A stretch of DNA of 64,000 bases. Source: Pseudomonas fulva 12-X. GTDB taxonomy: Bacteria; Pseudomonadota; Gammaproteobacteria; Pseudomonadales; Pseudomonadaceae. Shown piece by piece: positions 14,359-47,466 of the stretch (positions are counted from its first letter, which is position 1; each line of letters starts with the position of its first letter). The translations under genes were made by a program, and so were the position numbers. The notes under the pieces are model-generated. The model was given only the letters and a program-made list of their open reading frames with translations. It did not search any database and had not been told where the DNA came from. The stretch spans positions 2,991,001-3,055,000 of the forward strand of contig NC_015556.1 of assembly GCF_000213805.1 (NCBI RefSeq), given 5' to 3'.

Positions 14359-16094
14359 TGCCTGAAGTGAAACACAGACACGGCGCCTGGCCGGACGCAA
14401 CCGGCCACACCCACTTTGCCCTGTGGGCGCCAGACGCCAAGCGCGTCGCAGTAAAACTGCACGAAGACTCCCAGCACGAGATGACCGCCAGCGCCGAAGG
14501 CTGGTACACCGCCACCCTTCCGGTGGCGGCGGGCACCGACTACCACTACCTGATCGACGAACACCTGCTGGTGCCGGATCCGGCTTCGCGCTGGCAGGCC
14601 AACGACGTACACGGCCCCAGCCGCGTCGCCGATCCATCCCGATACAAATGGCGCAGCACCGACTGGCAGGGCCGCCCCTGGCAGGAAACGGTGCTCTACG
14701 AACTGCATGTCGGCGCCCTCGGCGGCTACCAGGCGGTCGAAGCGCGGCTTCAGGAGCTGGCCGACCTGGGCGTCACCGCCATCGAGCTGATGCCTCTGGG
14801 TGAGTTTCCCGGCGGCCGCAACTGGGGTTACGACGGCGTGCTGCCCTTCGCCCCGGACTCCTCCTACGGCACACCGGATCAGCTGCGCGCGCTGATCGAC
14901 CGCGCCCATGAGCTGGGCCTGATGGTGTTCATCGACGTGGTGTACAACCACTTCGGCCCGGACGGCAATTACCTGGGCCAGTACGCCAGCGACTTCTTCC
15001 GCGAAGACCTGCACACGCCCTGGGGCCCGGCCATCGATTTTCGCCGCCGCCAGGTGCGCGACTACTTCATCGACAACGCCCTGATGTGGGTGCATGACTA
15101 CCGCGTCGACGGCCTGCGTTTCGACGCCGTGCACGCCATTGGCGAACGCGATTTCCTGCTTGAACTGGCCGAGCGTCTGCGCACCTCGATTCCCGCCTCG
15201 CGTCATCTGCATCTGGTGCTGGAAAACGAGCACAACGACGCCGAGCTGCTGCAGCAAGGCTTCGACGCCCAGTGGAACGACGACGGCCATAACGTGCTGC
15301 ATCATCTGCTGACCGGCGAGCGCGAAGGCTACTACGCCGACTTCGCCAGCGATGCCACGCACAAGCTGGCCCGCTGCCTGCGCGAAGGCTTCATCTATCA
15401 GGGTGAAACCACCCGCCACGGCACCGTCCGCGGCAGCAGCAGCGGCCACCTGTCGCCGAGCGCCTTCGTGCTGTTCCTGCAGAACCACGATCAGGTCGGC
15501 AACCGCGCTGTCGGTGAACGCCTGCGCACGCTGGCCGATGACGACGCGCTGAAAAGCGCCACCGCCCTGCTGCTGCTCAGCCCAATGATTCCGCTGCTGT
15601 TCATGGGCGAGGAATGGGGCAGCGAGCAGCCGTTCCAGTTCTTCACCTCCCACAACGATGAGCTTGGCGAGGCAGTGCGCAAGGGGCGCCAGAACGAATT
15701 CAAGGATTTCTCCAAATTCTCCGGCCAGGCCATTCCGGCCCCGAATGACGCCAGCACCTTCGAGACCTCGAAGCCCGACCACCACAACCGAGACACGGCG
15801 GATGGCGAGGCCTGGCTGGCGTTCTATCGCGAGCTGCTGAGCCTGCGCCACCAGCACATCGTGCCACGCCTGGCAGGTAGCCAGGCCCTGGAAAGCCGGG
15901 TGCTCGGCGAGGCTGCTGTAGCTGCCAGCTGGCAACTTGGCGACGGCCGGGTACTGCATATCGCCCTCAATCTGGGCAGCGAGCCGGTCGAATCCGCTTT
16001 ACCGCAATCCGCCCGCACCCTGTTCAGCTACCGCGCGGACGGTGATCACCTGCTCGCTCGCAGCGTGCGGGTTGTGCTGGAGGGCGCGGTATGA
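14358..16094 (+). CDS. treZ: Malto-oligosyltrehalose trehalohydrolase TreZ
   Basis: A 578-residue GH13 enzyme that releases trehalose from maltooligosyl-trehalose made by TreY. An N-terminal CBM48-like domain (residues about 5-95: HTHFALWAPDAKRVAVKL) precedes the barrel. Catalytic residues: Asp256 in GLRFDAVHA (nucleophile), Glu289 in LVLENEHND (acid/base) and the Asp in FLQNHDQVGN. Region I is FIDVVYNHFG. The ATG at 14358 overlaps the glgA stop in ATGA, a sign of translational coupling, and the same arrangement follows at its own stop. Length is usual for TreZ. Confidence 0.96.
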   Translation: MPEVKHRHGAWPDATGHTHFALWAPDAKRVAVKLHEDSQHEMTASAEGWYTATLPVAAGTDYHYLIDEHLLVPDPASRWQANDVHGPSRVADPSRYKWRSTDWQGRPWQETVLYELHVGALGGYQAVEARLQELADLGVTAIELMPLGEFPGGRNWGYDGVLPFAPDSSYGTPDQLRALIDRAHELGLMVFIDVVYNHFGPDGNYLGQYASDFFREDLHTPWGPAIDFRRRQVRDYFIDNALMWVHDYRVDGLRFDAVHAIGERDFLLELAERLRTSIPASRHLHLVLENEHNDAELLQQGFDAQWNDDGHNVLHHLLTGEREGYYADFASDATHKLARCLREGFIYQGETTRHGTVRGSSSGHLSPSAFVLFLQNHDQVGNRAVGERLRTLADDDALKSATALLLLSPMIPLLFMGEEWGSEQPFQFFTSHNDELGEAVRKGRQNEFKDFSKFSGQAIPAPNDASTFETSKPDHHNRDTADGEAWLAFYRELLSLRHQHIVPRLAGSQALESRVLGEAAVAASWQLGDGRVLHIALNLGSEPVESALPQSARTLFSYRADGDHLLARSVRVVLEGAV

Positions 16095-18169
16095 GCGATG
16101 CACGCCTGGCAGAACTGAGCAAGGCCGCGGGCCTGAGCGTCGACTGGATCGACGCCGACGGCAACGCCCAATCGGTCAAACCCGAACACCAGCGTCGCCT
16201 GCTCGATGCCCTTGGCTATCCCGCCGCGGATGACGAGCAGATCGAAGCCAGCCTGGCGCAGCTGAAGCAACGCGAAGACAACCTGGCCCTCGGCCCGCTG
16301 GTGACCCTCGACCAGCAGCAGGCTCTGGACCTGACCCGTTATTTCCCGCCGGGTACACCCTTCGAGATTCAGCTCGAACAGGGCGAACGCCTGGAAGGCC
16401 GGCTGGATGATAGCGGCCGCCTGCCGGTGATCGGCACCACCGGCTATCACCAATTGCGCATCGCTGGCGGCGAAGTGACCCTGGCCGTGGCGCCCGCCGC
16501 GTGCCCCAGCGTTGCCGAGCTGGCCGGTCGCAGCGGCGCGAAGATCTGGGGCCTCAGCGCCCAGCTGTATTCGCTGCGCCGCCCGGGTGACGGCGGCCTG
16601 GGCGATACCCAGGCGCTGGAAGCCTTGGTGCGCAGCGCCGCTGCACGGGGTGCAGACGCGGTGGCGATCAGCCCGATGCACGCCATGTTCAGCGCCAACC
16701 TGCACACCTACAGCCCCTATTCGCCGTCCAGCCGGCTGTTTTTCAACGTGCTGCATGCTGCACCGGCCAGTGTGCTCGGAGAGGCAGCGGTGCAGCAGGC
16801 GATCCGCACCTGCGGTCTGGGCGAGGAACTGGCGCGCCTGGAAGGCCTGGAGCTGATCGACTGGCCGGGCGTCGCCAGCGCGCGCATGCAGATCCTGCGG
16901 CAGCTGCACGCGGACTTTGCCGCCAGCATCCATCCGCTGCAGGCCGACTTCGAGGCGTTCCGCCAGGCTGGCGGCGATGCCCTGCGCCAGCACTGCCGCT
17001 TCGAGGCGCTGCGCGGCTTCATGGACCTCAACGGCCTGCCGGTCGACTGGCGGGCCTGGCCCGAGCAGTACCGCGACCCTGCCAGCCCGGCGGTGGAACA
17101 GTTCTGCGCAGGCCATCAGCACGAGATCGAATTCCACACCTTCGCCCAATGGCTGGTGGCCCGTTGCCTGCAAGGCGCGCAGGCGGCAGCCCGTGAAGCG
17201 GGCATGGCGGTCGGCCTGATCGCCGACCTGGCCGTCGGCGCCGATGCCGCTGGCAGCCAGGCCTGGGGCCGGCAGGCCGAACTGCTGCAGTCGGTCAGCG
17301 TCGGTGCACCACCGGACATTCTCAATCGCTCGGGGCAAAACTGGGGCGTGTCGGCGTTCTCACCCCAGGGCCTGCAGGAGAATGGCTTTCGCGCCTATAT
17401 CGAAATGTTGCGCGCCAACCTGGCCCACGCCGGCGGCATGCGCATCGACCATGTGATGACGATGCGTCGCCTTTGGGTGATCCCTGCGGGCGAGGACTCG
17501 TCTGCCGGCGCCTACCTCAACTATCCCTTCCAGGATCTGCTGCGCCTGCTGTGCCTGGAGGCCGAGCGCCACCGCGCGCTGATCATCGGCGAGGACCTGG
17601 GCACGGTGCCCGACGGCCTGCGGGAAGAACTCGCGGCACGCAACATTCTCGGCATGCGCGTGCTGCTGTTCGAGCAGAGCAATGGCCACTTCCACGCTCC
17701 GGCCCATTGGCCGCGTGACGCCCTAGCCACCACCACAACCCATGATCTGCCGAGCATTCGCGGCTGGCTCGCCTCCCGCGACATCCATTGGCGCCAGGCT
17801 GCGGGCCACCGCAGCGACGACTACACCAACCAGGATCATCACTTGCGCGCCCAGGAAACCCGAGCACTGCACCAGGCTCTGCACGAGCACGGCCACGCCA
17901 CCGCCGACCAGATGGACGACGGCCAACAGCTGGACGCCAGCATCGCCTTCATTGGCAGCACGCCGGCGCCGCTGGTGCTGCTGCCGCTGGAAGACGCCAT
18001 GGCTGCCATGGAGCAGCCCAACCTGCCAGGCCCCGGCGACGAACACCCGAACTGGCGCCGCCGTTGGGCCGAAAATGCCGACAGCATGCTCGACGCCCCG
18101 GCCGTCGCCCATCGCCTGCAGCGTCTGCAATGGGCGCGCAACCTGGCGGAGGGCCTCGGCCATGACTAA
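16091..18169 (+). CDS. malQ: 4-alpha-glucanotransferase (amylomaltase) MalQ
   Basis: A 692-residue GH77 disproportionating enzyme: it moves maltodextrin segments between chains, releasing glucose. The N-terminal ~130 residues form the extension seen in proteobacterial MalQ, then KIWGLSAQLYSLRRPGDGGLGD marks the barrel start. Asp453 in GGMRIDHVMTMRRLW is the nucleophile, Glu501 in LIIGEDLGTVP the acid/base and THDLPSIRGW contains the transition-state Asp. It overlaps treZ by 4 bp and treY by 8 bp. In this operon MalQ probably recycles short oligosaccharides left after TreY/TreZ and GlgX action back to lengths that GlgP or TreY can use. Confidence 0.95.
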   Translation: MSDARLAELSKAAGLSVDWIDADGNAQSVKPEHQRRLLDALGYPAADDEQIEASLAQLKQREDNLALGPLVTLDQQQALDLTRYFPPGTPFEIQLEQGERLEGRLDDSGRLPVIGTTGYHQLRIAGGEVTLAVAPAACPSVAELAGRSGAKIWGLSAQLYSLRRPGDGGLGDTQALEALVRSAAARGADAVAISPMHAMFSANLHTYSPYSPSSRLFFNVLHAAPASVLGEAAVQQAIRTCGLGEELARLEGLELIDWPGVASARMQILRQLHADFAASIHPLQADFEAFRQAGGDALRQHCRFEALRGFMDLNGLPVDWRAWPEQYRDPASPAVEQFCAGHQHEIEFHTFAQWLVARCLQGAQAAAREAGMAVGLIADLAVGADAAGSQAWGRQAELLQSVSVGAPPDILNRSGQNWGVSAFSPQGLQENGFRAYIEMLRANLAHAGGMRIDHVMTMRRLWVIPAGEDSSAGAYLNYPFQDLLRLLCLEAERHRALIIGEDLGTVPDGLREELAARNILGMRVLLFEQSNGHFHAPAHWPRDALATTTTHDLPSIRGWLASRDIHWRQAAGHRSDDYTNQDHHLRAQETRALHQALHEHGHATADQMDDGQQLDASIAFIGSTPAPLVLLPLEDAMAAMEQPNLPGPGDEHPNWRRRWAENADSMLDAPAVAHRLQRLQWARNLAEGLGHD

Positions 18170-20966
18170 GTTGCGCGCCAGCGTTCGCCTGCAGTTTCAC
18201 AAAGGCTTCACCCTCGACGATGCCGTGCCCCTGGTCGACTATTTCGCACGCCTGGGCATCAGCCATATCTACGCCTCGCCGCTGCTCACCGCACGACCTG
18301 GCTCCATGCACGGCTACGACGTGGTCGACCCGACTCGCGTCAACCCCGAGCTGGGCGGCGAAGCGGCCCTGGAACGTCTGGTCAAGGCCCTGCGCGGCAA
18401 TGACATGGGGCTGATTCTGGATATCGTCTCCAACCATATGGCAGTCGGCGGCGACGCCAACCCCTGGTGGCTGGACGTGCTCGAATGGGGCGCCAGCAGC
18501 GCCCATGCGAAGTTCTTCGACATTCACTGGCAATCCCACGACCCGCTGCTGCGCGGCCAACTGCTGGTGCCCTTCCTGCGCAGCGACTACGGCGAGGTGC
18601 TGGCTGCCGGCGAGATCGAGCTGCACTTCGATGCCAAGCGCGGCCTGTTCTACGCCAAGCACTACGACCACCGTTTCCCGATCAACCCGCCGACCTATGG
18701 CGACATCCTGCAGCGTAGCGGCCATCCCGAGCTGCAGGCCCTGGGCCAGCGCTTCGCTGCGCTGGACGACAGCGCCGATGGTCAGCGCCAGGCGAGCGTG
18801 CTGTTTCGCGAACTGGTCGCCCTGGCCAGCAAGGCCGGCCATGCCATCGAGCGCGCCCTGGCCAGCCTGCGGCCTGCCGAGGGGCAGAACTTCGAAGCCC
18901 TGCATCAGCTGCTCGAACGCCAGCATTACCGCCTGGCCAGCTGGCGCACTGCGGCGGATGACATCAACTGGCGGCGCTTTTTCGACATCAACGAACTGGG
19001 CGGCCTCAAGGTCGAGCGACACGAGGTATTCGAGGCGACCCACGGGAAGATTTTCGAGCTGATCGAGAAAGGCCTGGTCGACGGACTGCGCATCGACCAT
19101 GTCGACGGCCTGGCCAACCCGCGCGCCTATTGCCGCAAGCTGCGCCGCCGTGTGGAGCGGCTGCTGCCCAAGCGCCCGGCGAATCTGCAGGGCGCTCGTT
19201 TTCCGATCTACGTCGAGAAGATTCTCGGCGAGGGCGAACAGCTGCCCCGCGACTGGGGCGTGGACGGCACCACCGGCTATGAGTTCATGAACCAGGTGTC
19301 GTTGCTGCAGCACGCCCCCGAAGGCGAGCCGGTACTGGCGAAGCTGTGGAGCGAAACCAGCGGCCGTGATGCCGACTTCATGGCCGAAGTGCGTGAAGCA
19401 CGACAGTTGGTGCTGACCACTTCCCTGGCCGGCGACCTGGAAGCGCTGGCCCAGGGCCTGTTGCTGGTCGCCCGTGACGACATCGCCACCCGCGACCTGA
19501 CCCTGGGCGCCATCCGCCGCGCGCTGTTGGAGCTGATCACCCATTTCTCGGTGTACCGCACCTATGTGTCGGCCGCCGGGCGCAGCGCCAATGATCAGGC
19601 GGTGTTCGACCAGGCCCTGGAAGGTGCCCGCACGACGCTCGCCGAGAGCGATTGGCCGTTGCTCGAACATCTGGACAGCTGGCTCGGCGGCCAGGCCCTG
19701 TCGCAACTGCCACCAAGCCCACAGCGCAAGCGCCGGGCGAAGATGATCGAACGCTTCCAGCAACTCACCTCGCCGGCGGCTGCCAAGGCCGTGGAAGACA
19801 CTGCCTGCTACCGCAGCGCCGTGCTGCTGTCGCGCAACGACGTAGGCTTCGACCCACAGCAGTTCAGCGCGCCGGTGCAGGCCTTTCATGACGGTTGCCT
19901 CGAGCGGGCCCGGCATTTCCCGGCCAACCTCTTGACCACCGCCACCCACGATCACAAGCGCGGCGAAGATACCCGTGCCCGTCTGGCCGTGCTCAGTGAA
20001 CGCGCCGAATGGTTCGCCGAGCGCTGTAAGCGCTGGCGCGAGATGGCCGCGCCGCTGCGCGAAGAACTGGATGACGGCCTGGCGCCCTCGCCCGGTGACG
20101 AGCTGATGCTGTTGCAGATCCTGCTGGCCTGCTGGCCGCTGGACCTCAACGCAGACGACGCCGATGGCCTGCAAACGCTCACCGAGCGCCTGACCGCCTG
20201 GCAGGAAAAAGCGGTGCGCGAGGCCAAGCTGCGCAGCACCTGGAGCAACCCCAACGAGCGCTATGAGCAGGCCTGCAGAAACTATCTGCACGCCCTGCTC
20301 GGCAGCGATCAGGCGGCCGAGTTGCGCGGCGAGATCTGCCGCGCCGCCAATGAGATCGCCCCGGCTGGTGCCCTCAACAGCCTGGCCCAGAGCCTGCTGC
20401 GCATGAGCGTGCCGGGTGTGCCGGATCTGTATCAGGGCTGCGAATTCTGGGATTTCTCACTGGTCGACCCGGACAACCGCCGCCCGGTGGACTTCGCCGC
20501 ACGCCGCCAGGCACTGGCCGATGAGCAACCGATCGCCCAGAAGCTGGAACATTGGCACGACGGCCAGGTGAAGCAGGCGCTGGTCGCCGCCACCCTGCAT
20601 GCCCGCATGACCCACGCGCAGCTGTTCGCCAAAGGCGGCTACCAGCCGCTCGAGGTTCAGGGCGAGCACGCCGATCGGGTCGTCGCCTTCCTGCGCAGCC
20701 TCGGTGAGCAGCACGCCATCGTCGTGGTGCCGCGCCTGAGCGCCAACCTGCTGGGCGACAGCGCCATGCCGCTGATCGCCACCGATCAATGGGGCGATAC
20801 CCGTATCGCCCTGCCCGCGCAGCTGGCCGGCACAACGCTGCGCAGCGCCTTCGATTCCGCCAACCCGCTGCCCACCGCCGGTTACCTCGCGCTGAGCGAT
20901 GTGCTGCGCGATGTCCCCGTCAATCTGCTGATCGCCACTAGCCAATCTCAGGAGTCACACCCATGA
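18162..20966 (+). CDS. treY: Malto-oligosyltrehalose synthase TreY
   Basis: A 934-residue GH13 intramolecular transglycosylase that converts the reducing-end alpha-1,4 bond of linear glucan into an alpha,alpha-1,1 bond, giving the TreZ substrate. Family start RASVRLQFHKGFTLDDAVPLVDYFARLGISHIYASPL, then GYDVVDPTRVNPELGG. Asp312 in GLRIDHVDGLANP is the nucleophile, Glu352 in YVEKILGEGE the acid/base, and TATHDHKRGED carries the third carboxylate. The ATG at 18162 overlaps malQ by 8 bp; the frame is open far upstream, but that part is the shadow of malQ. It overlaps the following small gene by 4 bp. Confidence 0.96.
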   Translation: MTKLRASVRLQFHKGFTLDDAVPLVDYFARLGISHIYASPLLTARPGSMHGYDVVDPTRVNPELGGEAALERLVKALRGNDMGLILDIVSNHMAVGGDANPWWLDVLEWGASSAHAKFFDIHWQSHDPLLRGQLLVPFLRSDYGEVLAAGEIELHFDAKRGLFYAKHYDHRFPINPPTYGDILQRSGHPELQALGQRFAALDDSADGQRQASVLFRELVALASKAGHAIERALASLRPAEGQNFEALHQLLERQHYRLASWRTAADDINWRRFFDINELGGLKVERHEVFEATHGKIFELIEKGLVDGLRIDHVDGLANPRAYCRKLRRRVERLLPKRPANLQGARFPIYVEKILGEGEQLPRDWGVDGTTGYEFMNQVSLLQHAPEGEPVLAKLWSETSGRDADFMAEVREARQLVLTTSLAGDLEALAQGLLLVARDDIATRDLTLGAIRRALLELITHFSVYRTYVSAAGRSANDQAVFDQALEGARTTLAESDWPLLEHLDSWLGGQALSQLPPSPQRKRRAKMIERFQQLTSPAAAKAVEDTACYRSAVLLSRNDVGFDPQQFSAPVQAFHDGCLERARHFPANLLTTATHDHKRGEDTRARLAVLSERAEWFAERCKRWREMAAPLREELDDGLAPSPGDELMLLQILLACWPLDLNADDADGLQTLTERLTAWQEKAVREAKLRSTWSNPNERYEQACRNYLHALLGSDQAAELRGEICRAANEIAPAGALNSLAQSLLRMSVPGVPDLYQGCEFWDFSLVDPDNRRPVDFAARRQALADEQPIAQKLEHWHDGQVKQALVAATLHARMTHAQLFAKGGYQPLEVQGEHADRVVAFLRSLGEQHAIVVVPRLSANLLGDSAMPLIATDQWGDTRIALPAQLAGTTLRSAFDSANPLPTAGYLALSDVLRDVPVNLLIATSQSQESHP

Positions 20967-21295
20967 GCGCAAAAGAAGACCGCATCCGTGAGTTCGCCTA
21001 CCAGATCTGGGAATCCGAAGGGAAACCCCATGGCCAGGCCAAACGCCACTGGGAAATGGCCACCAAGCTGGTCGAAGCCGAGCAGACGCCCGGCAAGGCC
21101 GCACCCAAGCGCGTGAGCAAGCCCAAGGCCGCCGCTGGCGAGCCGGCCCCTGCCGCGCCGATCAAACCCCGCGCCAGCAAAGCCGCGCCCAAGGCTGACG
21201 CCGAGAAGCCTGCCCTGCTCAAACCGGCCAAGGCACCCGCCAAGGCCAAACCCAGCACTACCCCCAAGCCTGCCGCCAAGAAGCCCAAGGCCTGA
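20963..21295 (+). CDS. DUF2934 domain protein with basic Ala/Lys/Pro-rich tail
   Basis: A 110-residue protein. Residues 1-40 (MSAKEDRIREFAYQIWESEG, then PHGQAKRHWEMATKLVE) form a compact DUF2934 domain; residues 45-110 are a low-complexity stretch of Ala, Lys and Pro with repeated KPKA/KPAKAP units, probably unfolded and strongly basic. Function unknown. The domain is often found next to trehalose/glycogen genes in proteobacteria. Here it is placed between treY (4-bp overlap) and glgX (18-bp gap with AGGAG), so it is made with the glucan enzymes. Plausible roles are glucan or nucleic-acid binding, or scaffolding; none is shown. Confidence 0.85.
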   Translation: MSAKEDRIREFAYQIWESEGKPHGQAKRHWEMATKLVEAEQTPGKAAPKRVSKPKAAAGEPAPAAPIKPRASKAAPKADAEKPALLKPAKAPAKAKPSTTPKPAAKKPKA

Positions 21296-21313
21296 TACCA
21301 GGAGCCACCCAGA

Positions 21314-23446
21314 ATGAGTCAACCACGCTCGCGTATAACCGAAGGTCAACCCTTTCCGTTGGGGTCGACCTGGGATGGTTTGGGCGTCAACTTCGCGCTC
21401 TTCTCGGCTCACGCCACCAAGGTCGAACTGTGCATCTTCGACCCTGATGGCCTGGAAGAGATCGAGCGCATCGAATTGCCGGAGTACACCGACGAGATCT
21501 GGCACGGCTACCTGCCCGACGCCCACCCAGGGCTGATCTACGGTTACCGCGTGTACGGCCCCTACGAGCCGGAAGCCGGTCACCGCTTCAACCCCAACAA
21601 ACTGCTGATCGACCCCTACGCCAAGCAGCTGGTCGGCGAGCTGAAGTGGTCCGAAGCGCTGTTCGGTTACGAGATCGGTCACCCCGATGGCGACCTCAGT
21701 TTCGACGAGCGTGACAGCGCGCCCTTCGTGCCCAAGTGCAAGGTCATCGACCCGGCGTACACCTGGGGCAAGCACCGCAGCCATCGCGTGCCCTGGGACA
21801 AGACGGTGTTCTACGAGGCCCACCTGCGCGGCCTGACCATGCGTCATCCGGCGGTGGCCGAGGACAAGCGCGGCACCTTCGCCGGGCTGATGAGCGCCGA
21901 GGTGATCAAGCACATGCGCAAGCTCGGCGTGTCGTCGGTCGAGTTGCTGCCCATCCATGCCTTCGTCAACGACCAGCACCTGCTGGAAAAGGGCATGAAC
22001 AACTACTGGGGCTACAACAGCATCGGCTTCTTCGCCCCGCACCCGCGTTACCTGGCCAGCGGCCACATCAACGAGTTCAAGGAGATGGCCGCGCACCTGC
22101 ACGATGCCGGCCTGGAGCTGATTCTCGACGTGGTCTACAACCACACCGCCGAAGGCAACGAGCTGGGCCCGACCCTGTCCATGCGCGGCATCGACAACGC
22201 CAGCTACTACCGGCTGATGCCCGATGACAAGCGCTACTACATCAACGATTCGGGTACCGGCAACACTCTGGACCTGAGCCATCCGTGCGTGCTGCAGATG
22301 GTCACCGACTCGCTGCGCTACTGGGCCACCGAGATGGGCGTGGACGGCTTCCGTTTCGACCTGGCGACCATTCTCGCCCGCCATCACGATGGCTACGACG
22401 AGCGCCACAGCTTCCTGGTCGCTTGTCGCCAGGACCCGGTGCTGAGCAAGGTCAAGCTGATCGCCGAGCCCTGGGACTGCGGCCCTGGCGGCTATCAGGT
22501 CGGCGGCTTCCCGCCGGGCTGGGCGGAGTGGAACGACAAGTTCCGCGACAACGTGCGCAGCTTCTGGAAAGGCGACGAAGGCCAGTTGGCCGAACTGGCC
22601 AGCCGCCTGACCGCCTCGGGCGACCTTTACAACCAGCGGGGTCGCCGGCCGTTCTCGTCGGTGAACTTCATCACCGCCCACGACGGTTTTACCCTCAATG
22701 ACCTTGTCTCCTACAACGACAAGCACAACGAGGACAACGACGAGAACAACCAGGACGGCAGCAACAACAACATGTCCTGGAACCACGGCGTCGAAGGCCC
22801 GACCGACGACGAGGCCATCAACGACCTGCGCTTCCGGCAGATGCGCAACTTCATGGCCACGCTGATCCTCGCCCAGGGTACGCCGATGCTGGTGGCCGGC
22901 GACGAGTTCGCGCGCACCCAGCACGGCAACAACAACGCCTACTGCCAGGACAGCGAGATCGGCTGGATCAACTGGGACCTGGGCGAGCGCGGCAAGCAGT
23001 TGCAGGAGTTCGTCACCCGGGTGATCAAGCTGCGCATGAACTACCCGATCCTGCGTCGCGGGCGCTTCTTCGTCGGCGCCTTCAACGATGAGCTGGGCGT
23101 CAAGGACGTCACTTGGCTGGCGCCCAACGGTGAGGAGATGAACGAGGACAACTGGCACGACCCGCACGCCCGCTGCATGGGCATGCTGCTCGATGGCCGT
23201 GCTCAGCCGACCGGCATCCGCCGTAGCGGCGCCGACGCGACCCTGCTGCTGGTGGTCAACTCGCACCACGACGTGGTCAATTTCCGCCTGCCGGAAGTCG
23301 CCCAGGGCAGCCACTGGACCTGCATGCTCGACACCAACCGTGTCGAAGAGCCGGAGGACGATGAAGTCTTCCAGTTCGGTGACGAGTTCATCGTCACCCA
23401 TCGCTCGCTGGTGCTGTTCGAGCTGCAGAAGGAAAAGGTGGTATGA
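21314..23446 (+). CDS. glgX: Glycogen debranching enzyme GlgX
   Basis: A 710-residue GH13 isoamylase-type enzyme hydrolysing alpha-1,6 branches of phosphorylase-trimmed glycogen. The N-terminal CBM48 domain starts GQPFPLGSTWDGLGVNFALFS; the barrel motifs are ELILDVVYNHT, Asp349 in GFRFDLATI (nucleophile), Glu385 in LIAEPWDCGPGGYQVG (acid/base) and FITAHDGFTLNDLVSYN (stabilising Asp). Length and motifs are standard. It supplies linear chains for MalQ, TreY and GlgP. Its stop overlaps the start of the acyl-CoA-dehydrogenase-like gene by ATGA, tying the following four uncharacterised genes to the glycogen operon. Confidence 0.96.
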   Translation: MSQPRSRITEGQPFPLGSTWDGLGVNFALFSAHATKVELCIFDPDGLEEIERIELPEYTDEIWHGYLPDAHPGLIYGYRVYGPYEPEAGHRFNPNKLLIDPYAKQLVGELKWSEALFGYEIGHPDGDLSFDERDSAPFVPKCKVIDPAYTWGKHRSHRVPWDKTVFYEAHLRGLTMRHPAVAEDKRGTFAGLMSAEVIKHMRKLGVSSVELLPIHAFVNDQHLLEKGMNNYWGYNSIGFFAPHPRYLASGHINEFKEMAAHLHDAGLELILDVVYNHTAEGNELGPTLSMRGIDNASYYRLMPDDKRYYINDSGTGNTLDLSHPCVLQMVTDSLRYWATEMGVDGFRFDLATILARHHDGYDERHSFLVACRQDPVLSKVKLIAEPWDCGPGGYQVGGFPPGWAEWNDKFRDNVRSFWKGDEGQLAELASRLTASGDLYNQRGRRPFSSVNFITAHDGFTLNDLVSYNDKHNEDNDENNQDGSNNNMSWNHGVEGPTDDEAINDLRFRQMRNFMATLILAQGTPMLVAGDEFARTQHGNNNAYCQDSEIGWINWDLGERGKQLQEFVTRVIKLRMNYPILRRGRFFVGAFNDELGVKDVTWLAPNGEEMNEDNWHDPHARCMGMLLDGRAQPTGIRRSGADATLLLVVNSHHDVVNFRLPEVAQGSHWTCMLDTNRVEEPEDDEVFQFGDEFIVTHRSLVLFELQKEKVV

Positions 23447-24477
23447 CCGGGAGCGGCACTCGTTTGGTAGAACGCCTCGGCGCCCTGCTGAACGAGTGGC
23501 CGCACCCACTCCCGCATCATCCCGAGGCCCTGCTGCGCAGCCTGCAAAGGTTGTGTGACGCGGGCCTCGACCAATTACCCAAACCCGGCGGTGGCCAGAC
23601 CCTGCAACGTTGGCAGGCGCTGGCCACGGTCGCCGCACAGGACCTGAGCCTGTGCAAACTCTACGAAGGCCATACCGACGCCCTGGCGATTCTCGAGCAT
23701 TTCGGCGCGGATGTACCGGCTCACGCCACTTGGGGCATGTGGGCTGCCGAACCGCCCCAGGCGCGCGTCACCCTAGGCGCCGAGCAGCATGACGGCAACG
23801 TGCGCCTGCACGGCCGCAAGGCCTGGTGCTCGGGCGCCACAGTGCTCAGCCACGCTCTGCTCACCGCCTGGAATGAACGAGGCGAACAGCAGCTGGTGGC
23901 GGTTGCCCTCGAACAGCCTGGCGTGCGCGTGACCGAAGACGGCTGGCAGGCCGTAGGCATGGCCGCCACCCAGAGCGTGGAGATTCTCTTCGATGATGCC
24001 CGTGGCCAGCTGGTTGGCCCGCCTGGTGGCTACCTCGCCCGGCCCGGCTTCTGGCAAGGCGGCGCCGGCATCGCTGCCTGCTGGCATGGCGCGGCCAGCC
24101 GCCTGGGCGAAGCGCTGCGCCGGCACTGCGCCGAACGCGACGAACCCCATGCCCTCGCCCACCTCGGCCAGGTGGACTGCGCCCTGACGGCCGCCGCCAG
24201 CGCACTGCGCGAATGCGCCGCCTGGATCGACGCCAACCCAGAGGCCAACGCCGAACTGCCCGTACGCCGCGTACGTGCCCTGGTCGAGCACAGCGCCAGC
24301 ACAGCGATCGAGCACGTCGGCCGCGCCCTGGGCGCTGCGCCCTATTGCCGTGACGGCGCACTGGCGCGGCTGCTGGCCGACTTACCGGTGTTCCTGCGCC
24401 AGAGCCATGCCGAACGCGATCTGGCGGCTCTGGGCAAGCTCGCCGCGCCTCAACCACAAGAGAGCTGGATGCCATGA
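23443..24477 (+). CDS. Acyl-CoA dehydrogenase-like protein
   Basis: A 344-residue protein with the acyl-CoA dehydrogenase fold: a helical N-domain, a beta domain with GRKAWCSGATVLSHALLTA (the usual G-K-x-W/F-C-S-G-A segment, residues about 124-142) and WQAVGMAATQSVEILFDDARG, and a helical C-domain. I do not see the classical C-terminal IYEGT-type flavin motif; the end reads LPVFLRQSHAERDLAALG, closer to acyl-CoA-dehydrogenase-related oxidases/monooxygenases. The product is likely a flavoprotein acting on an acyl or amine group. It starts inside the glgX stop (ATGA) and overlaps the PIG-L gene by 4 bp, marking the first gene of a conserved-looking quartet. Confidence 0.8.
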   Translation: MTGSGTRLVERLGALLNEWPHPLPHHPEALLRSLQRLCDAGLDQLPKPGGGQTLQRWQALATVAAQDLSLCKLYEGHTDALAILEHFGADVPAHATWGMWAAEPPQARVTLGAEQHDGNVRLHGRKAWCSGATVLSHALLTAWNERGEQQLVAVALEQPGVRVTEDGWQAVGMAATQSVEILFDDARGQLVGPPGGYLARPGFWQGGAGIAACWHGAASRLGEALRRHCAERDEPHALAHLGQVDCALTAAASALRECAAWIDANPEANAELPVRRVRALVEHSASTAIEHVGRALGAAPYCRDGALARLLADLPVFLRQSHAERDLAALGKLAAPQPQESWMP

Positions 24478-25232
24478 ACGCCAACCCGATCCAGGGCCAG
24501 GGCACCTCGCCACAAGCCTGGAAAGCCTCACGGCGTCTGGCCCAGGTGCCCGATATCGACTGCAGGCAACTGGTGCCCGAAGGCTGCCGCGCAGTGATCG
24601 TCGCGCCGCATCCGGATGATGAAATCCTCGGCAGTGGCGGCCTGCTGCAGCTGCTGGCCCAGGCGCAGCGGCAGATATTGCTGATTTCGGTCACCGACGG
24701 CGCCGCAAGCCACCCCGGCTCTACCTACTGGACGCCGCAGCGCCTGCGCATCGTGCGCCCCCAGGAAAGCGCCGATGCCCTCAAACGCCTCGGCCTGCCG
24801 ATTACCCAGGTGCAATGGGTGCATGGCGGCTTTCCCGATACCGGCGTAACCGCCGCGGAAGGTGAGTTGCGTGAGTTTCTGAAAACCTACCTGCAACCCA
24901 GCGACGTGGTGTTCACCACCTGGCGCGAGGACGGTCACGCCGACCATGAAGCGGTGGGCCGCGCGGCGCTGACCGCGGCCTTCGAATGTGGCGCCCGTGC
25001 CCATGAGATTCCGATCTGGGCCTGGCACTGGGCAAGCCCCGAGGACCCGCGCATTCCCTGGGAACGCGCCCGCAAGCTGCAGCTCGACAAATGGGCACAG
25101 GCGCGCAAGCGCCACGCCATCCAGGCCTTTGCCAGCCAACTCTATGACGACCCCGACACCGGTCACCCGCCAGTGCTTTCGGGCACGGCGGTGGAACGCC
25201 TGCAGCAACCCTTCGAGGTGGTGTTTCTATGA
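24474..25232 (+). CDS. PIG-L family N-deacetylase
   Basis: A 252-residue zinc-dependent LmbE/PIG-L deacetylase. The signature APHPDDEILGSGGLL lies near residues 43-57, with the metal ligands His45 and Asp48 region, and a second histidine in the HADHEAVGRAALTAAF segment (residues about 158-173), the usual third ligand. Characterised members remove acetyl from N-acetylglucosamine in GPI anchors, mycothiol, bacillithiol and antibiotics. It overlaps both neighbours by 4 bp. Combined with the glycosyltransferase and methyltransferase, a GlcNAc-like glycoconjugate is a plausible substrate, but that is inference. Confidence 0.9.
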   Translation: MNANPIQGQGTSPQAWKASRRLAQVPDIDCRQLVPEGCRAVIVAPHPDDEILGSGGLLQLLAQAQRQILLISVTDGAASHPGSTYWTPQRLRIVRPQESADALKRLGLPITQVQWVHGGFPDTGVTAAEGELREFLKTYLQPSDVVFTTWREDGHADHEAVGRAALTAAFECGARAHEIPIWAWHWASPEDPRIPWERARKLQLDKWAQARKRHAIQAFASQLYDDPDTGHPPVLSGTAVERLQQPFEVVFL

Positions 25233-25852
25233 GCGTTGCCGACAATTACTTCGATAAGCTTTACAAGGGCAGCGAAGATCCCTGGTCATTTCGCGAACGC
25301 TGGTACGAGCAGCGCAAGCGCAACCTGACCCTCGCCGCCCTGCCGCGCAGCCACTACGGCAGCATCTTCGAGCCGGGCTGCGCCAACGGCGAACTCAGCG
25401 CGCGCCTGGCCGAGCGCTGTACCCAACTGCTGTGCAGCGACACTTCGGCCATCGCCCTGGAGCTGGCGCATAATCGCCTCGCCCACCGCAGCAACGTGCG
25501 CCTGCTGCAGACCCGTCTGCCGGAGCAATGGCCGGCCGGGCGCTTCGACCTGATCGTACTCAGCGAGCTGTGCTACTACCTCGACGAACAGGATCTGGAT
25601 CGCCTGATCGACTGCGCCCGGGCCGCCCTCAACACCGGCGGTAACCTGCTGGCCTGCCACTGGCGTTGGCCCATCGCCGAGTGCCCGCTGAGCGGCGATG
25701 AGGTTCACCGCCGCCTGCACGAACGCCTCGGCCTGCCGCGCCTGTTGCGCCATGAAGATGCCGACCTGCTGCTCGAGGTCTGGGGTACCGAAAGCACCTC
25801 CGTAGCCCAGCGCGAAGGCCTGGTGCCGGAAGCCCAGGAGCGTCCGGTTTGA
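25229..25852 (+). CDS. NodS-like SAM-dependent methyltransferase
   Basis: A 207-residue class I methyltransferase. It starts with the NodS-type pattern NYFDKLYKGSEDPWSFRERWYEQRKRNLTLAALP, followed by the SAM glycine loop IFEPGCANGELSARLAERC (residues about 45-63), an acidic motif II (SDTSAIALELA) and the post-I segment FDLIVLSELCYYL. Rhizobial NodS N-methylates the deacetylated amino sugar of Nod factors, a reaction that would follow a deacetylase such as the preceding PIG-L protein. Overlaps are 4 bp on both sides. Substrate unproven. Confidence 0.85.
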   Translation: MSVADNYFDKLYKGSEDPWSFRERWYEQRKRNLTLAALPRSHYGSIFEPGCANGELSARLAERCTQLLCSDTSAIALELAHNRLAHRSNVRLLQTRLPEQWPAGRFDLIVLSELCYYLDEQDLDRLIDCARAALNTGGNLLACHWRWPIAECPLSGDEVHRRLHERLGLPRLLRHEDADLLLEVWGTESTSVAQREGLVPEAQERPV

Positions 25853-26493
25853 TCGGCATCGTGATTCCCGCTCACAACGAAGAACAGAGCCTGGACGCCT
25901 GCCTGACTGCCCTGCTCGAAGCGGCTGCCCATCCCGATCTGGACGTGCCCGTGCGCATTCTGGTGGTGCTCGACAGCTGCACCGACGGCTCGGCCAGCGT
26001 GGTCGCCAACTACCCGGTCGAAAGCCTGACGCTGCAGGCGCGCAACGTCGGCCAGGCGCGCGCTTCCGGTGTGGCCTGGCAACTCGAACGCGGCGCGGAC
26101 TGGATCGCCTGCTCCGATGCCGACAGCCGGGTCGCTGCCGACTGGCTGGTGCGCCAGCGCGAACTGCAGGCCGACATGGTCTGCGGCACCGTGGAAGTCG
26201 CCGAATGGGGCGAACTCGACGGCGGCGTACAGAGCCGTTACCTGAGCGCCTACCAGGACCGCGACGGTCACCGGCACATCCACGGTGCCAATCTGTCGTT
26301 CAGCGCAGCCGCCTACGACCGCGCCGGGGGTTTCCAGAAAATCGTCGTCGACGAGGACGTGCAACTGGTCGCCGCCTTCGAGCGCATCGGCGCGCGCATC
26401 GCCTGGAGCTCGCTGCCGCGCGTGTATACCAGTGCCCGACTGGACTGCCGCGCCCGCGGCGGCTTCGGCGATTACCTGCGTTCGCTGCTCTAG
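25849..26493 (+). CDS. Family 2 glycosyltransferase
   Basis: A 214-residue soluble GT-A enzyme without membrane segments. Start IGIVIPAHNEEQSLDACLTALL, nucleotide-sugar DxD-type motif DADS near residue 89 (WIACSDADSRVAADW), acceptor loop HGANLSFSAAAYDRAGGF and catalytic-base motif VVDEDVQL (residues about 160-170). The start is a TTG at 25849, which overlaps the methyltransferase stop as TTGA and has AGGAG nine bases before; no better ATG is available. It closes the operon begun by glgA. The stop TAG lies within a long inverted repeat that may be the operon terminator. Confidence 0.88.
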   Translation: MIGIVIPAHNEEQSLDACLTALLEAAAHPDLDVPVRILVVLDSCTDGSASVVANYPVESLTLQARNVGQARASGVAWQLERGADWIACSDADSRVAADWLVRQRELQADMVCGTVEVAEWGELDGGVQSRYLSAYQDRDGHRHIHGANLSFSAAAYDRAGGFQKIVVDEDVQLVAAFERIGARIAWSSLPRVYTSARLDCRARGGFGDYLRSLL

Positions 26494-26562
26494 GGCCTGT
26501 TGACGCTTGCGCACGAACCGCCGCAGAGCCCGGCGGCTTGCGCGGTAGTACCAACAGGCCCT
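26492..26562 (+). terminator. Long inverted repeat at the end of the ten-gene operon
   Basis: AGGGCCTGTTG (26492-26502) and CAACAGGCCCT (26552-26562) are perfect 11-base inverse copies separated by 49 bases, which themselves contain a CCGCCG/CGGCGG hairpin. The left arm overlaps the glycosyltransferase stop codon. There is no T tract, so it is either a Rho-assisted terminator, an mRNA-stabilising hairpin or a small mobile repeat. Confidence 0.5.
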
Positions 26563-26693
26563 GACCCGCCGCACGGCGGCCAAATACCTTGAACCGCCCC
26601 CTCGCCGCTCCAGTCGGAAATTTAACGACGCCCGCGTGCCTGCTGCGCGCGAGCCCCTCGCTGAACCACCGCGACCATCGCCAGGAGTACAGC

Positions 26694-27107
26694 ATGAAAG
26701 TCAGCGACATAATGACCCGCGGCGTGCAGACCATCACGCCCACCCAGACCATCCACGAAGCCGCCGCCATGATGGCGCGCATCAATTGCGGCGCCCTGCT
26801 CGTCAACCAGGATGATCGCCTGATCGGCATGATCACCGACCGCGACATCACCGTGCGCGCGGTGGCTACCGGCATGCCAGGCGAAACGCCGATTTCCGAG
26901 GTAATGAGCGGCGAGATCCGTTACTGCTTCGACGACGAAGACGTGTTGCACGTGGCCCGCAACATGGGCGACAACCAGCTGCGTCGCCTGCCGGTGCTCA
27001 ACCGCGACAAACGCCTGGTTGGCGTGGTGTCGCTGGGCAACCTGGCCCTGAGCGACGACCCGCAGGCCAGCGCCGAGTTGCTGCGCCGCGTTACCGGCGC
27101 CCACTGA
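26694..27107 (+). CDS. CBS domain protein
   Basis: A 137-residue protein made of two CBS motifs forming one Bateman module: MKVSDIMTRGVQTITPTQTIHEAAAMMARINCGALLVNQ (first) and ISEVMSGEIRYCFDDEDVLHVARNMGDNQLRRLPVLNRDKRLVGVVSLGNLA (second). CBS pairs bind adenosyl nucleotides and sense energy charge; free-standing copies such as this may regulate a partner. The ATG at 26694 follows AGGAG at seven bases; the longer frame from 26589 has no ribosome site. It is monocistronic, between the end of the glgA operon and the DUF72 operon. Confidence 0.92.
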   Translation: MKVSDIMTRGVQTITPTQTIHEAAAMMARINCGALLVNQDDRLIGMITDRDITVRAVATGMPGETPISEVMSGEIRYCFDDEDVLHVARNMGDNQLRRLPVLNRDKRLVGVVSLGNLALSDDPQASAELLRRVTGAH

Positions 27108-27183
27108 GCATGAGCAGACCGACGCGAAGAGTCGGCGCCTGCGGGCAACTGCGCGTTGCTCTGCCGCAAGCGGGTGAGTCGCG

Positions 27184-28095
27184 GTGAAGCACATCCACAT
27201 CGGCATTTCCGGCTGGCGCTATGCGCCCTGGCGCGGCGACTTCTACCCCGAAGGCCTGAAGCAACGCGAGGAACTGGCGTTCGCCTCCCGGGCGGTGAGC
27301 AGTATCGAAATCAACGGCTCGTTCTACGCCCTGCAAACGCCCGAGCGTTATGCCGGTTGGGCCGCTGAGACACCGGACGGCTTCTGCTTCGCGGTCAAGG
27401 CGCCGCGCTATATCACCCATATTCGCCGCCTCGATGACGTGGCCACGCCCATCGCCAATTTCTTCGCTTCGGGGCCGTTGCAGCTGGGCGAGAAACTCGG
27501 GCCGTTCCTGTGGCAGTTCCCACCAAGCATGCCCTTCGACGAGCAACGCTTCGCCGACTTCCTCGCTCTGCTGCCGCAGGACACGGAGCAGGCCCTGGGC
27601 AGTGCGAAGAAAGCCGATCGCCTGCAGGACGGCAGCCTGGATGTGCCCCACCAGCAGAAGCTGCGCCACGCCGTGGAAATCCGTAACCCGAGCTTTTGTG
27701 ACCCGGCCTTTATCAAGTTGCTGCGCAAGCACAAGGTCGCGCTGGTGTTCGCCGACAGCGCCGGCAAGTGGCCGTACGCCGAGGATCTGACTGCCGACTT
27801 CGTGTACCTGCGCCTGCACGGCAACAAGAAGCTCTACGAAAGTGGTTACGACGAAGACGCCATCGACCACTGGCACCAGCGCGTCGCCACCTGGAGCCGC
27901 GGCCAGCAACCCGGTGACGCGCAGCTGATCGACAGCCACAAGCCGCGCGCCCGAAAGTCGCGCGACGTGTACTGCTATTTCGACAATGACCTCAAGGTTC
28001 GCGCGCCCTACGACGCCCACGCGCTGTTAGAGAAGTTCGACCTGGCCCGGGGGCTGCCCAACGCCCCCGGCCAGTCGCCAGGAGTAAGCCCATGA
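27184..28095 (+). CDS. DUF72 (YecE-like) protein
   Basis: A 303-residue DUF72 protein with a TIM-barrel-like fold. Landmarks are the N-terminal [63 protein letters not shown], and the end segment [21 protein letters not shown]. No reaction is established for the family. It starts with GTG at 27184 and overlaps the ybhP-like gene by 4 bp (ATGA), placing it first in the clsB operon. Positions of the family are often near DNA or membrane stress genes, but this gives no functional assignment. Confidence 0.88.
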
Positions 28096-28871
28096 CCACC
28101 CACCAACCGGCACCCACGGAACTGGCCAGCGCGGTTCACACGCTGAAGATTCTCACGGTCAACACCCACAAGGGGTTCACCGCGCTGAACCGGCGCTTCA
28201 TTCTTCCAGAGCTGCGCGATGCAGTGCGCACGCTGTCGGCCGATATGGTGTTTCTGCAGGAAGTGCATGGCACCCACGAGCACCACGCCAAGCGCTACGA
28301 GAACTGGCCGCCGACGCCGCAGTACGAGTTTCTCGCCGACAGCATGTGGCCGCAGTTCGCCTATGGCCGCAACGCGGTGTACCCCCATGGCGACCACGGC
28401 AACGCCCTGCTCTCGAAATTCCCGATCCTGCGCCACGATAACCTCGACATCTCCATCGGCACCCAGGAGCAGCGCGGCCTGCTGCACTCGGTGCTCGACG
28501 TGCCGGGGCACGCCGAAGTACATGCCATCTGCGTGCACCTGGGCCTGCGCGAAGTGCATCGCAAGCAGCAGCTGGGTTTGCTGTGCAAGGTGCTCGACCG
28601 CCTGCCGGCCGACGCGCCGGTGATCGTGGCGGGCGACTTCAACGACTGGCGCCAGCGCGCCGATGGCCTGCTGGCCGCCAGCGGCCTGAAAGAAGCCTTC
28701 GTCAGCGAGCACGGCAAGCCGGCCAGGAGCTTCCCCGCGCGCTGGCCGCTGCTGTGCCTGGATCGCATCTACGTGCGCAACGCGACCACTCACAACCCGC
28801 AGGTGCTGTCGACCCGTCCCTGGTCGCACCTGTCCGATCATGCACCGTTGGCTGTGGAGATACGGCTATGA
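28092..28871 (+). CDS. YbhP-like endonuclease/exonuclease/phosphatase family protein
   Basis: A 259-residue member of the EEP superfamily (DNase I/inositol phosphatase fold). Visible metal-dependent motifs are LTVNTHKGF (residues about 20-28), FLQEVHG with the metal-binding Glu, [11 protein letters not shown] near residue 180 and the terminal [12 protein letters not shown] with the catalytic His. It corresponds in position and size to E. coli YbhP, encoded directly upstream of clsB (ybhO) and ybhN. The substrate may be a phospholipid head group or phosphodiester rather than DNA. ATGA overlaps on both sides. Confidence 0.88.
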
Positions 28872-30100
28872 AGTACGAATGGCGTGATGGCAACCAGATC
28901 GATCTGTTGATCAACGGCGAGGATTTCTTTCCCGCCGTGTTCGAGAGCATCCGCAATGCCCGCCAGCAAGTGCTGCTGGAAACCTTCATCATCTTCGAAG
29001 ACAAGATCGGCATGGAGCTGCAGCAGGCGCTGATCGCCGCTGCCCGCAACGGCGCCGAGGTGGAGATCACTGTGGACGGTTACGGCACCGCGGACCTCTC
29101 CACCGAGTACGTCGCAGCGTTGGTGGCCGCCGGTGTGCGGGTGCACATGTTCGACCCAGGCAAGCGCCTGCTGGGCATGCGCACCAACCTGTTCCGCCGT
29201 CTGCACCGCAAGATCGTGGTGGTCGACAACGAGGTCGCCTACATCGGCGGCATCAACTACGGCGAAGACCATATCGCCGATTACGGGCCGATGGCCAAGC
29301 AGGATTATGCCGTGCGCGTGCGTGGCCCCATCGTCGCCGACCTGCACACCGCCGCCGTGCGCCTGCTCGACGCCCGAGATGATCGCCCGGCGACGCCCCA
29401 TCGTGGCAGCCAGCCAGGTCAGCACCGCCACGCCGGCAACAGCCGCCTGCTGATGACCATCCGCGACAATGGCGACGACACCAACACCATCGAACAGCAT
29501 TACCTGGATGCCATCCGCAACGCCCAGCACCGCTTGATCATCGCCAACGCCTACTTCTTTCCCGGCTACCGGCTGCTGCGCGAGCTGCGCAATGCGGCGC
29601 GGCGCGGCGTGAAGGTGACGCTGATCCTGCAGGGCATGCCGGACATGCCGCTGGTGCGCCTGTGCTCGCGCCTGACCTACAACTACCTGCTGCGCGACGG
29701 CGTGACCATCTACGAATACTGCCAGCGCCCGCTGCACGGCAAGGTGGCCCTGGCCGATCACGAGTGGTGCACCATCGGCTCGAGCAACCTCGACCCTCTG
29801 AGCCTGTCGCTCAACCTGGAAGCCAACGTGATCGTGCGCGACGCGGCGCTCAACCGTCGCCTGCATGAACACCTCTCGGAGCTGGCCGAATCGAGCTGCA
29901 AGTCGGTGCCGCTCAAGCGGGTGATGCGCGGTTACTGGTGGCGCGCGCCGCTGATCTTCCTGTGCTTTCACTTCCTGCGCCATTTCCCGGCCATCGCCGG
30001 CTGGTTCCCGGCCCACTCGCCGCGCATCAAGCTGCTCAAACCCGAAATCGAAGCGCCGCAATGCGGCACCTTGCAGGTCGACCAGGAGAAAGTCTCGTGA
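28868..30100 (+). CDS. clsB: Cardiolipin synthase ClsB (phospholipase D family)
   Basis: A 410-residue PLD-superfamily enzyme that forms cardiolipin from phosphatidylglycerol. Two HKD motifs: [18 protein letters not shown] at residue 113 and [20 protein letters not shown] at residue 290. Unlike ClsA there are no N-terminal membrane helices; a C-terminal hydrophobic/basic segment ([19 protein letters not shown]) near residue 360 may bind the membrane. The start ATG at 28868 overlaps the YbhP-like stop as ATGA. Order ybhP-clsB-ybhN is conserved with E. coli. In P. aeruginosa a related cls lies in the glgB-glgX stress region. Confidence 0.92.
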
Positions 30101-31086
30101 GCAAACCCGACGACAAGCAAGGCAAGCCGGCATGGCGCTGGGCCAAGCGACTGTTGACCCTGTGCTTTTTCATTCTGGTGCCGGCGCTGCTGTTCATGCT
30201 GGTCAAGAACCTCGACTGGCAGGAGGTTAGCCAGGCGCTGCGCGGCTTCAGCCCGACCATCCTGCTCGCCGCAGTCGGCGTGACGGCGCTGAGCTACGGG
30301 GTGTATTCGAGCTTCGACCTGATCGGCCGCGCCTACACCCAGCACGGTCTGCCGACACGCCAGGTGCTGCCGCTGACCTTCGTGTGCTACGCCTTCACCC
30401 TCAACCTGAGTTCCTGGGTCGGCGGTGTGGCGCTGCGTTATCGCCTCTATTCGCGCCTCGGGCTGAAGGTTTCGACCATCACCCGCGTGCTGAGCATGAG
30501 CCTGATCACCAACTGGCTGGGCTACATCCTGCTGGCTGGCGTGCTGTTCACCTTTGGCCTGGTCAAGCTGCCCGAAGGCTGGGCCGTCGGCGCCACAGGC
30601 CTGCGCATCATCGGCCTGGCGCTGCTCGCCGTGGGCATCGGTTACCTGCTGGCCTGCCAGTTTTCCAAACGTCGCAGCTGGACGATTCGCGGCCACGAGC
30701 TGAACCTACCGTCGCTGCCCATGGCCCTGCTGCAGGCCGGCCTCGGCGCCCTGAACTGGTCGCTGATGGCGCTGATCATCTACCTGCTGCTGCCTGAAGA
30801 AGCTTTCTACCCGACCATTCTCGGCATCCTAATGATCAGCAGCATCGCCGGGGTGATCACCCATATTCCTGCAGGCCTGGGCGTGATCGAGGCGGTATTC
30901 ATCGCCATGCTGCAGCACGAAATGTCCAAGGGCAGCATCGTCGCCGCGCTGATCGGTTACCGGGCGATCTACTTCCTGCTGCCGCTGGCGGTGGCCTGCG
31001 TGGTCTACCTGGTGCTGGAAAAACGCGCCAAGAAGCTGCGCCAGAACGCCGGCCAGGAAAACGCCGAAGAGCCGCGCCCTGCCTGA
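30097..31086 (+). CDS. YbhN/lysylphosphatidylglycerol synthase transmembrane family protein
   Basis: A 329-residue polytopic membrane protein of the UPF0104/LPG_synthase_TM family, with about eight hydrophobic segments beginning LLTLCFFILVPALLFMLV and including the conserved-looking NLSSWVGGVALRYRLYSRLGL and THIPAGLGVIEAVFIAML. It lacks the cytosolic aminoacyl-transferase domain of MprF, so it does not make lysyl-PG; it is more likely a lipid flippase-like or lipid-handling protein working with ClsB. GTG at 30097 overlaps the clsB stop as GTGA; GGAG precedes it. Confidence 0.88.
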   Translation: MSKPDDKQGKPAWRWAKRLLTLCFFILVPALLFMLVKNLDWQEVSQALRGFSPTILLAAVGVTALSYGVYSSFDLIGRAYTQHGLPTRQVLPLTFVCYAFTLNLSSWVGGVALRYRLYSRLGLKVSTITRVLSMSLITNWLGYILLAGVLFTFGLVKLPEGWAVGATGLRIIGLALLAVGIGYLLACQFSKRRSWTIRGHELNLPSLPMALLQAGLGALNWSLMALIIYLLLPEEAFYPTILGILMISSIAGVITHIPAGLGVIEAVFIAMLQHEMSKGSIVAALIGYRAIYFLLPLAVACVVYLVLEKRAKKLRQNAGQENAEEPRPA

Positions 31087-42082: not shown

Positions 42083-42142
42083 AGTGGTCTGGTTCGCTGC
42101 AGTCGTTGAGAAAGATGCAGTGCCGTGCCATCGACCGGTTCC

Positions 42143-47455: not shown

Positions 47456-47466
47456 GGCCGCTTACC

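Follow-up and report, generated by a model that had tools for sequence, protein, structure and literature searches.

A four-gene enzyme cassette behind glgX in Pseudomonas fulva 12-X and its possible place in general-stress metabolism

In the 64,000-nucleotide stretch of the Pseudomonas fulva 12-X genome analysed here (contig NC_015556.1, positions 2,991,001 to 3,055,000; hereafter the window), four co-directional open reading frames (23443-26493) stand directly behind glgX and make up one enzyme cassette. They encode a flavoprotein with an acyl-CoA-dehydrogenase fold, a PIG-L (LmbE) de-N-acetylase, a NodS-like S-adenosylmethionine (SAM)-dependent methyltransferase and a GT2 glycosyltransferase, and they are a co-inherited unit. 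Our preferred reading, held at little better than even confidence, is that they form a self-contained biosynthetic cassette of a general-stress (stationary-phase, osmotic or desiccation) programme, which makes a small modified amino-sugar glycoside alongside trehalose. A GT2, a PIG-L and a NodS-like methyltransferase side by side most naturally suggest a sugar or amino-sugar product; the reaction order, donor, acceptor and product are what we infer. As the original prediction for this DNA had supposed, no product assigned to such a set was found in the literature searched, which consisted of open-licence papers.

Co-inheritance and distribution of the cassette

The original prediction named a scattered and independent occurrence of the four genes as the outcome that would speak against a functional set, and the comparison of genomes gave the opposite. 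Among 119 Pseudomonadaceae genomes, source genome included, the flavoprotein is found in 27, the methyltransferase in 26 and the GT2 in 26, and these are the same genomes except for G339, which has the flavoprotein without the other cassette genes (methyltransferase versus flavoprotein, hypergeometric p 2e-25 over the 119 genomes, kinship ignored). Two genomes (G305 and G237) retain the GT2 although it is unlinked from the cassette. PIG-L occurs in 36 genomes, namely in 26 of the 27 flavoprotein carriers and in 10 genomes that have no other cassette gene. The solo PIG-L occupies the slot where relatives hold the cassette in 8 of those 10, behind glgX in five (L192-L196) and behind LigD in three (L198-L200), and lies elsewhere in L201 and L202; an extra copy stands behind glgX (L197) in G310, itself a cassette carrier. 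Given these slots, the solo PIG-L may be a remnant or an independently acting gene with a role of its own. A second, divergent PIG-L lies behind the cassette in some pseudomonads (L043, L044, L066, L067).

Beyond the family, the flavoprotein was detected at a threshold of E 1e-20 in 17 of 299 genomes sampled from the phylum, source genome included. The two samples yielded 39 proteobacterial loci outside the window, taken with 8 kb on each side where the contig allowed, and the complete quartet is present at 32 of them (gene presence by tblastn here and below). For the actinobacteria, named genomes were scanned with a Kitasatospora-led query and the best 80 of at least 483 confirmed loci were kept, which gives no measure of how frequent the cassette is; 55 of the 80 hold the complete quartet, some contigs being cut. 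They include Streptomyces, Nocardiopsis, Rhodococcus, Nocardia and Mycobacterium, with the order flavoprotein-PIG-L-methyltransferase-GT2 in 21 loci and GT2-flavoprotein-PIG-L-methyltransferase in 32, while several mycobacteria keep only the flavoprotein, or the flavoprotein and PIG-L. Such recurrence is far beyond chance: these four families return in other genera and phyla, for the most part without a change of order. The pairwise distances of the four genes correlate with each other; r is 0.89-0.94 for 37 proteobacterial rows, among them the window and plasmids, and 0.79-0.88 when all 92 complete rows are taken.

Matches also came from 39 plasmid records, 19 of them Acinetobacter and three of these chromosome-sized; the DNA of 8 of the 39 was examined, and L087, which has the flavoprotein without the cassette, was excluded from the plasmid counts. 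The chromosome-sized three, H27-H29, are A. baumannii records of 3.7-4.1 Mb filed as plasmids. By sequence, the cassette is also carried in other A. baumannii DNA (L260) and in L259. A phage origin was considered and rejected: the sole two matches in the phage collection (H40, H41) share one name, and H40 resembles an Acinetobacter chromosome contig. The record in question, named Acinetobacter phage MD-2021a (L259, H40), looks like a bacterial chromosome contig.

The gene overlaps described in the original prediction are real: every cassette start shares 4 nt with the stop codon before it, as ATGA three times and TTGA once, the first of them with that of glgX (Table 1). No internal sigma-70-like promoter was found in 20900-27300, and a strong, single-copy hairpin without a T run, unlike chance, follows immediately 3' of the last cassette gene, which together fit a single transcript whose 3' end is probably this hairpin. 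Upstream lies a trehalose/alpha-glucan operon (glgA, treZ, malQ, treY, then glgX). Rfam gave no RNA-element matches at gathering scores in the window. A separate set of genes follows downstream (28092-31086; endonuclease/phosphatase-like, ClsB cardiolipin synthase and YbhN-like), in which ClsB alone was confirmed. A role in phage defence was also considered and set aside: PADLOC gave a single match, of the methyltransferase to mad2, which we took as generic.

Table 1. Features of the cassette locus, with a fuller version from another genome
Feature	Position	Strand	Remarks
glgA	12766-14358	+	NCBIfam cut-off exceeded
treZ	ends 16094	+	NCBIfam cut-off exceeded
malQ	16091-18169	+	NCBIfam cut-off exceeded
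treY	18162-20966	+	NCBIfam cut-off exceeded
glgX, glycogen debranching enzyme	21314-23446	+	TIGR02100 1085 bits vs cut-off 641
Flavoprotein, acyl-CoA-dehydrogenase fold	23443-24477	+	344 aa
PIG-L (LmbE) de-N-acetylase	24474-25232	+	252 aa
NodS-like SAM-dependent methyltransferase	25229-25852	+	207 aa
GT2 glycosyltransferase, soluble GT-A type	25849-26493	+	214 aa, TTG start
Hairpin	26491-26563	+	12-bp outer stem, -45.4 kcal/mol, z -5.65
GT4/MurG-like/GT2b trio linked to cassette	L203:4981-7973		also L072, L056, L104

Fuller versions of the cassette carry three extra glycosyltransferases. The displaced GT2 of G305 is adjoined by genes for a GT4, a MurG-like protein and a second GT2 (GT2b); the full trio also borders the cassette in L072 and L104 and, together with KatE, Ku and LigD, in L056, an alphaproteobacterial-type locus whose class we infer, and L055 and L057 have part of it. 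The MurG-like gene is found in 11 of the 119 Pseudomonadaceae genomes, all 11 of them cassette carriers (p 1.2e-8; nine are of one genus), and is adjoined by GT4 and GT2b in every one. In the phylum sample a second GT2 occurs in 12 of 299 genomes, 5 of them among the 17 flavoprotein carriers; in further such genomes (e.g. L235, L239) PIG-L or several cassette genes lie close by, with a flavoprotein below the cut-off. The source genome has no MurG-like match and thus the short form. A sequence search at E 1 gave no solved structure related to the MurG-like protein. The idea that linkage to trehalose genes replaces the trio was dropped. Although the MurG-like gene is missing from most Pseudomonadaceae in which the cassette is linked to glgX or otsA, the full trio is present in G305 and a GT2b in G074, and a single genus accounts for nine of the eleven genomes with the MurG-like gene.

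Genomic company and expression

A trehalose/alpha-glucan gene lies near the cassette at 17 of the 39 proteobacterial loci, against none of 20 equally long control stretches, taken at arbitrary places, one each from 20 of the locus genomes (Fisher p 1.8e-4, kinship ignored). Directly upstream of the cassette stands glgX in 10 of the 17 and otsA in L049, L052 and L059, while in L048, L070 and L079 such genes are found only some kb away. Comamonas endophytica has the order otsA, four cassette genes, otsB; two Acinetobacter plasmids have otsA about 1.6 kb from the cassette; and Cupriavidus has GlgE and catalase nearby, with a PIG-L adjoining the catalase. On a 54-row flavoprotein tree, many of whose branches are weak, the direct trehalose link takes 6 changes (losses counted), so that several independent associations, not strictly counted, are likely. 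Two trehalose pathways unrelated to each other are involved, treYZ/glgX in Pseudomonas and otsA/otsB in Comamonas and elsewhere.

The proposed coupling to glycogen and trehalose genes is therefore a repeated association, but it is one of several settings: at none of the 80 actinobacterial loci was a trehalose/alpha-glucan gene found within 10 kb, which weighs against a general trehalose link. KatE accompanies the cassette at 13 and LigD at 9 of these 80 loci, and LigD at 10 and KatE at 3 of the 39 proteobacterial ones; nine genomes, all of a single genus, have the cassette behind Ku and LigD. The window itself reads as a stress and storage island, since glgB, a maltokinase gene, LigD, catalase HPII and glgP are also present (38187-55581, minus strand). 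By its best named protein hits, the source genome is of the Phytopseudomonas type. The common denominator that we see among these neighbours is general stress.

Expression data point in a similar direction. According to PMC5660220 (Table 2), A. baumannii ACICU_02432-02435, annotated as a glycosyltransferase, a SAM-dependent methyltransferase, an LmbE protein and an acyl-CoA-dehydrogenase-related protein, drop 31- to 62-fold in two colistin-dependent mutants; we equate them with the cassette by product name and order. All four are flagged 'e' in that table, which we read as one operon, and the 33 genes that are down in both mutants also include otsA, otsB, a catalase and a hypothetical gene adjoining the four. 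In the parts available of PMC5660220 and PMC9948694 such genes are named without a function, and those of PMC4694148 held nothing that could be tied to the cassette. In a P. fluorescens UK4 rpoS mutant the matching glgA-glgX, glgB-treS-glgE, glgP and katE genes fall (PMC6372562); the main text of that paper, in which 'acyl-CoA dehydrogenase', 'deacetylase' and 'LmbE' do not occur, is silent on the cassette. The pseudomonad trehalose/alpha-glucan operons of PMC8084333 and PMC8982409 have the same upstream operon, glgA to glgX, as here; unlike the present locus with its cassette, their main texts are without the words deacetylase, PIG-L, methyltransferase and glycosyltransferase.

Trehalose, or a maltooligosaccharide, could itself be the acceptor, the cassette decorating it with a modified amino sugar to give a derived compatible solute. 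Direct linkage to treYZ/glgX and otsA/otsB at several places in the flavoprotein tree (the 6 changes above), the position between otsA and otsB in Comamonas endophytica, and the co-expression with otsAB in A. baumannii reported in PMC5660220 would all suit this reading. We nevertheless consider it unlikely: 22 of the 39 proteobacterial and all 80 actinobacterial loci have no such neighbour, and a shared osmotic-stress regulation accounts for the linkage equally well.

Chemistry of the four enzymes

The family names given in the original prediction broadly hold for PIG-L, the GT2 and the NodS-like enzyme. The GT2 exceeds the PF00535 (Glycos_transf_2) cut-off, has DxD and ED motifs (D90, D92, E169 and D170 invariant) and is of GT-A fold. 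Donor and acceptor could not be read from this fold, on which WrtF, heparosan synthase, TarS/TarP and others score close together. The earlier alternative of a glycolipid stands beside the soluble glycoside: the cassette might make or modify an envelope glycolipid with an amino-sugar headgroup. ArnC-type lipid-sugar transferases are among the matches of the GT2 profile too, fuller versions bring three extra glycosyltransferases, and PIG-L enzymes are known for glycolipids, which counts in favour of this product. In addition, the A. baumannii strains with collapsed cassette expression were colistin-dependent mutants (PMC5660220). Such a glycolipid is improbable in our view, as the GT2 is a soluble domain of 214 aa with the GT-A fold and no recurring acyltransferase, polyprenyl-phosphate transferase or exporter was noticed among neighbours that were clustered and inspected by eye rather than annotated; L085 has a major facilitator superfamily (MFS) transporter behind the cassette.

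Membership of PIG-L in the de-N-acetylases is indicated by its sequence, with PF02585 at 91.9 bits (cut-off 28.2) and metal motifs, HPDDE (46-50) and HxDH (H155/D157/H158), that are conserved across 37 aligned rows (P47 at 97%). BshB1/MshB and diacetylchitobiose deacetylase belong to the same family and share these metal-binding motifs, and sugar transfer followed by PIG-L deacetylation is also the logic of a protective low-molecular thiol, or thiol conjugate, of the bacillithiol or mycothiol type. BshB1 is indeed the best NCBIfam match of PIG-L, but at 49.1 bits against a cut-off of 182.5, and the protein falls under the BshB2, MshB and Mca cut-offs as well. The partners also differ: the cassette holds no ligase or acetyltransferase, its glycosyltransferase is a GT2 whereas BshA and MshA are GT4 enzymes, and it occurs in actinobacteria, which make mycothiol themselves. 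We regard a thiol pathway as very unlikely.

The methyltransferase matches Methyltransf_12/25 and NodS, shares the N-terminal DPW motif with NodS and has a close solved relative, PDB 4isc, which we take to be from P. syringae. It reaches 52.2 bits where the NodS equivalog cut-off is 300, and its neighbours are Acyl-CoA_dh_M, PIG-L and Glycos_transf_2, not NodA, NodB or NodC; nod genes were sought beside it and not elsewhere in the genome.

In Pfam, the flavoprotein scores only for the middle domain Acyl-CoA_dh_M, at 33.8 bits against a cut-off of 33.3, whereas the structural model (pLDDT 92.3) has the complete acyl-CoA-dehydrogenase fold; S130, W168, R319 and Q320 are identical in 40 aligned rows. 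The top profile matches, within the seven best rows, are TdsC (3.6e-11), DszC (1.8e-10) and MsuC (1.8e-9), and 5gj7/5z8t, labelled acyl-CoA dehydrogenase and flavin-containing monooxygenase, are also among the first. A mixture of dehydrogenases and N-oxygenases comes next (ColB1 (7xp7), 6u1v, KijD3 at 1.2e-7, 2dvl and the nitrososynthase 3mxl at 4.7e-7), followed lower down by DnmZ and isobutyryl- and short-chain acyl-CoA dehydrogenases. With DszC the protein shares a CSG serine and a Trp (DszC 163 and 205 by alignment), both of which are catalytically important in DszC. DszC, MsuC and SfnB work on sulfur compounds, and the flavoprotein is far below the SfnB cut-off (40.9 vs 430.9 bits). In an alignment with the own-genome proteins L246, L247 and L250 (L248, L249, L258 and L251-L255 left out), the column that we take for the MCAD-type catalytic glutamate appears as an invariant Gln (Q320) followed by x-His, and the presumed isovaleryl-type column as Gly, so that both positions are non-acidic. 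Two proteins of the same genome that we label SfnB-like from their motif have His where the flavoprotein family has Gln-x-His.

Because both catalytic-glutamate positions are non-acidic and the best profile matches are flavin monooxygenases, the flavoprotein is probably a flavin-dependent monooxygenase of the group D type rather than an acyl desaturase. Against this assignment stands the predicted structure, whose comparison decides for neither side: the top VIA rows are dehydrogenases, tied with TdsC, and Foldseek gives dehydrogenases the higher TM-scores. Group D monooxygenases, to whose characterised members the flavoprotein has sequence kinship, have the acyl-CoA-dehydrogenase fold and include N-hydroxylating members (PMC6165268). 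The amino-sugar N-oxygenases and nitrososynthases KijD3, DnmZ and 3mxl, found by profile and by fold, share that fold and have amino sugars as substrates; a dTDP-amino sugar stands in the title of the KijD3 entry 4kcf. Their identity to the flavoprotein is 17-19% and they keep other pathway company. The earlier description as acyl-CoA-dehydrogenase-like thus fits the fold but probably misleads about the chemistry, and oxidation or desaturation of an acyl group is probably not its task. The Nod-factor-like lipo-amino-sugar first proposed, despite the overall fold of the flavoprotein and the way in which GT2, deacetylase and NodS-like methyltransferase mirror Nod-factor assembly (sugar transfer, deacetylation, methylation), is hardly credible for a cassette with no acyltransferase, no dehydrogenase glutamate, a methyltransferase short of NodS and a PIG-L, which is distinct from the NodB family.

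Proposed pathway and significance

In the pathway that we propose, the GT2 would use a nucleotide donor to attach an N-acetylated sugar, likely of the GlcNAc type, to a small acceptor in the cytosol, PIG-L would strip the acetyl group and expose an amine, and the NodS-like enzyme would methylate the intermediate, plausibly on that nitrogen. The flavin monooxygenase, supplied by a housekeeping flavin reductase, may then oxygenate the sugar or the amine, like its relatives KijD3 and DnmZ, to give a small modified amino-sugar glycoside made with trehalose, which some lineages might extend with the three further glycosyltransferases (GT4, MurG-like, GT2b). A more specific version, which we offer as a doubtful speculation, is a two-phylum pathway whose product is an amino-sugar glycoside both N-methylated and N-oxygenated (hydroxylamine- or nitroxide-type). 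Made together with trehalose and catalase, it would quench radicals at the side of the compatible solute while cells dry out or rest. If true, this would be a so far unseen class of stress protectant.

The assignment of the flavoprotein also brings into question the name 'acyl-CoA dehydrogenase' on many named database records. The four-gene form is small enough to be deleted or expressed as a whole and is therefore directly testable. A cassette that is conserved in genera as far apart as Pseudomonas, Acinetobacter, Streptomyces and Mycobacterium, and that often keeps company with genes for trehalose, catalase or non-homologous end joining, suggests an overlooked stress metabolite.

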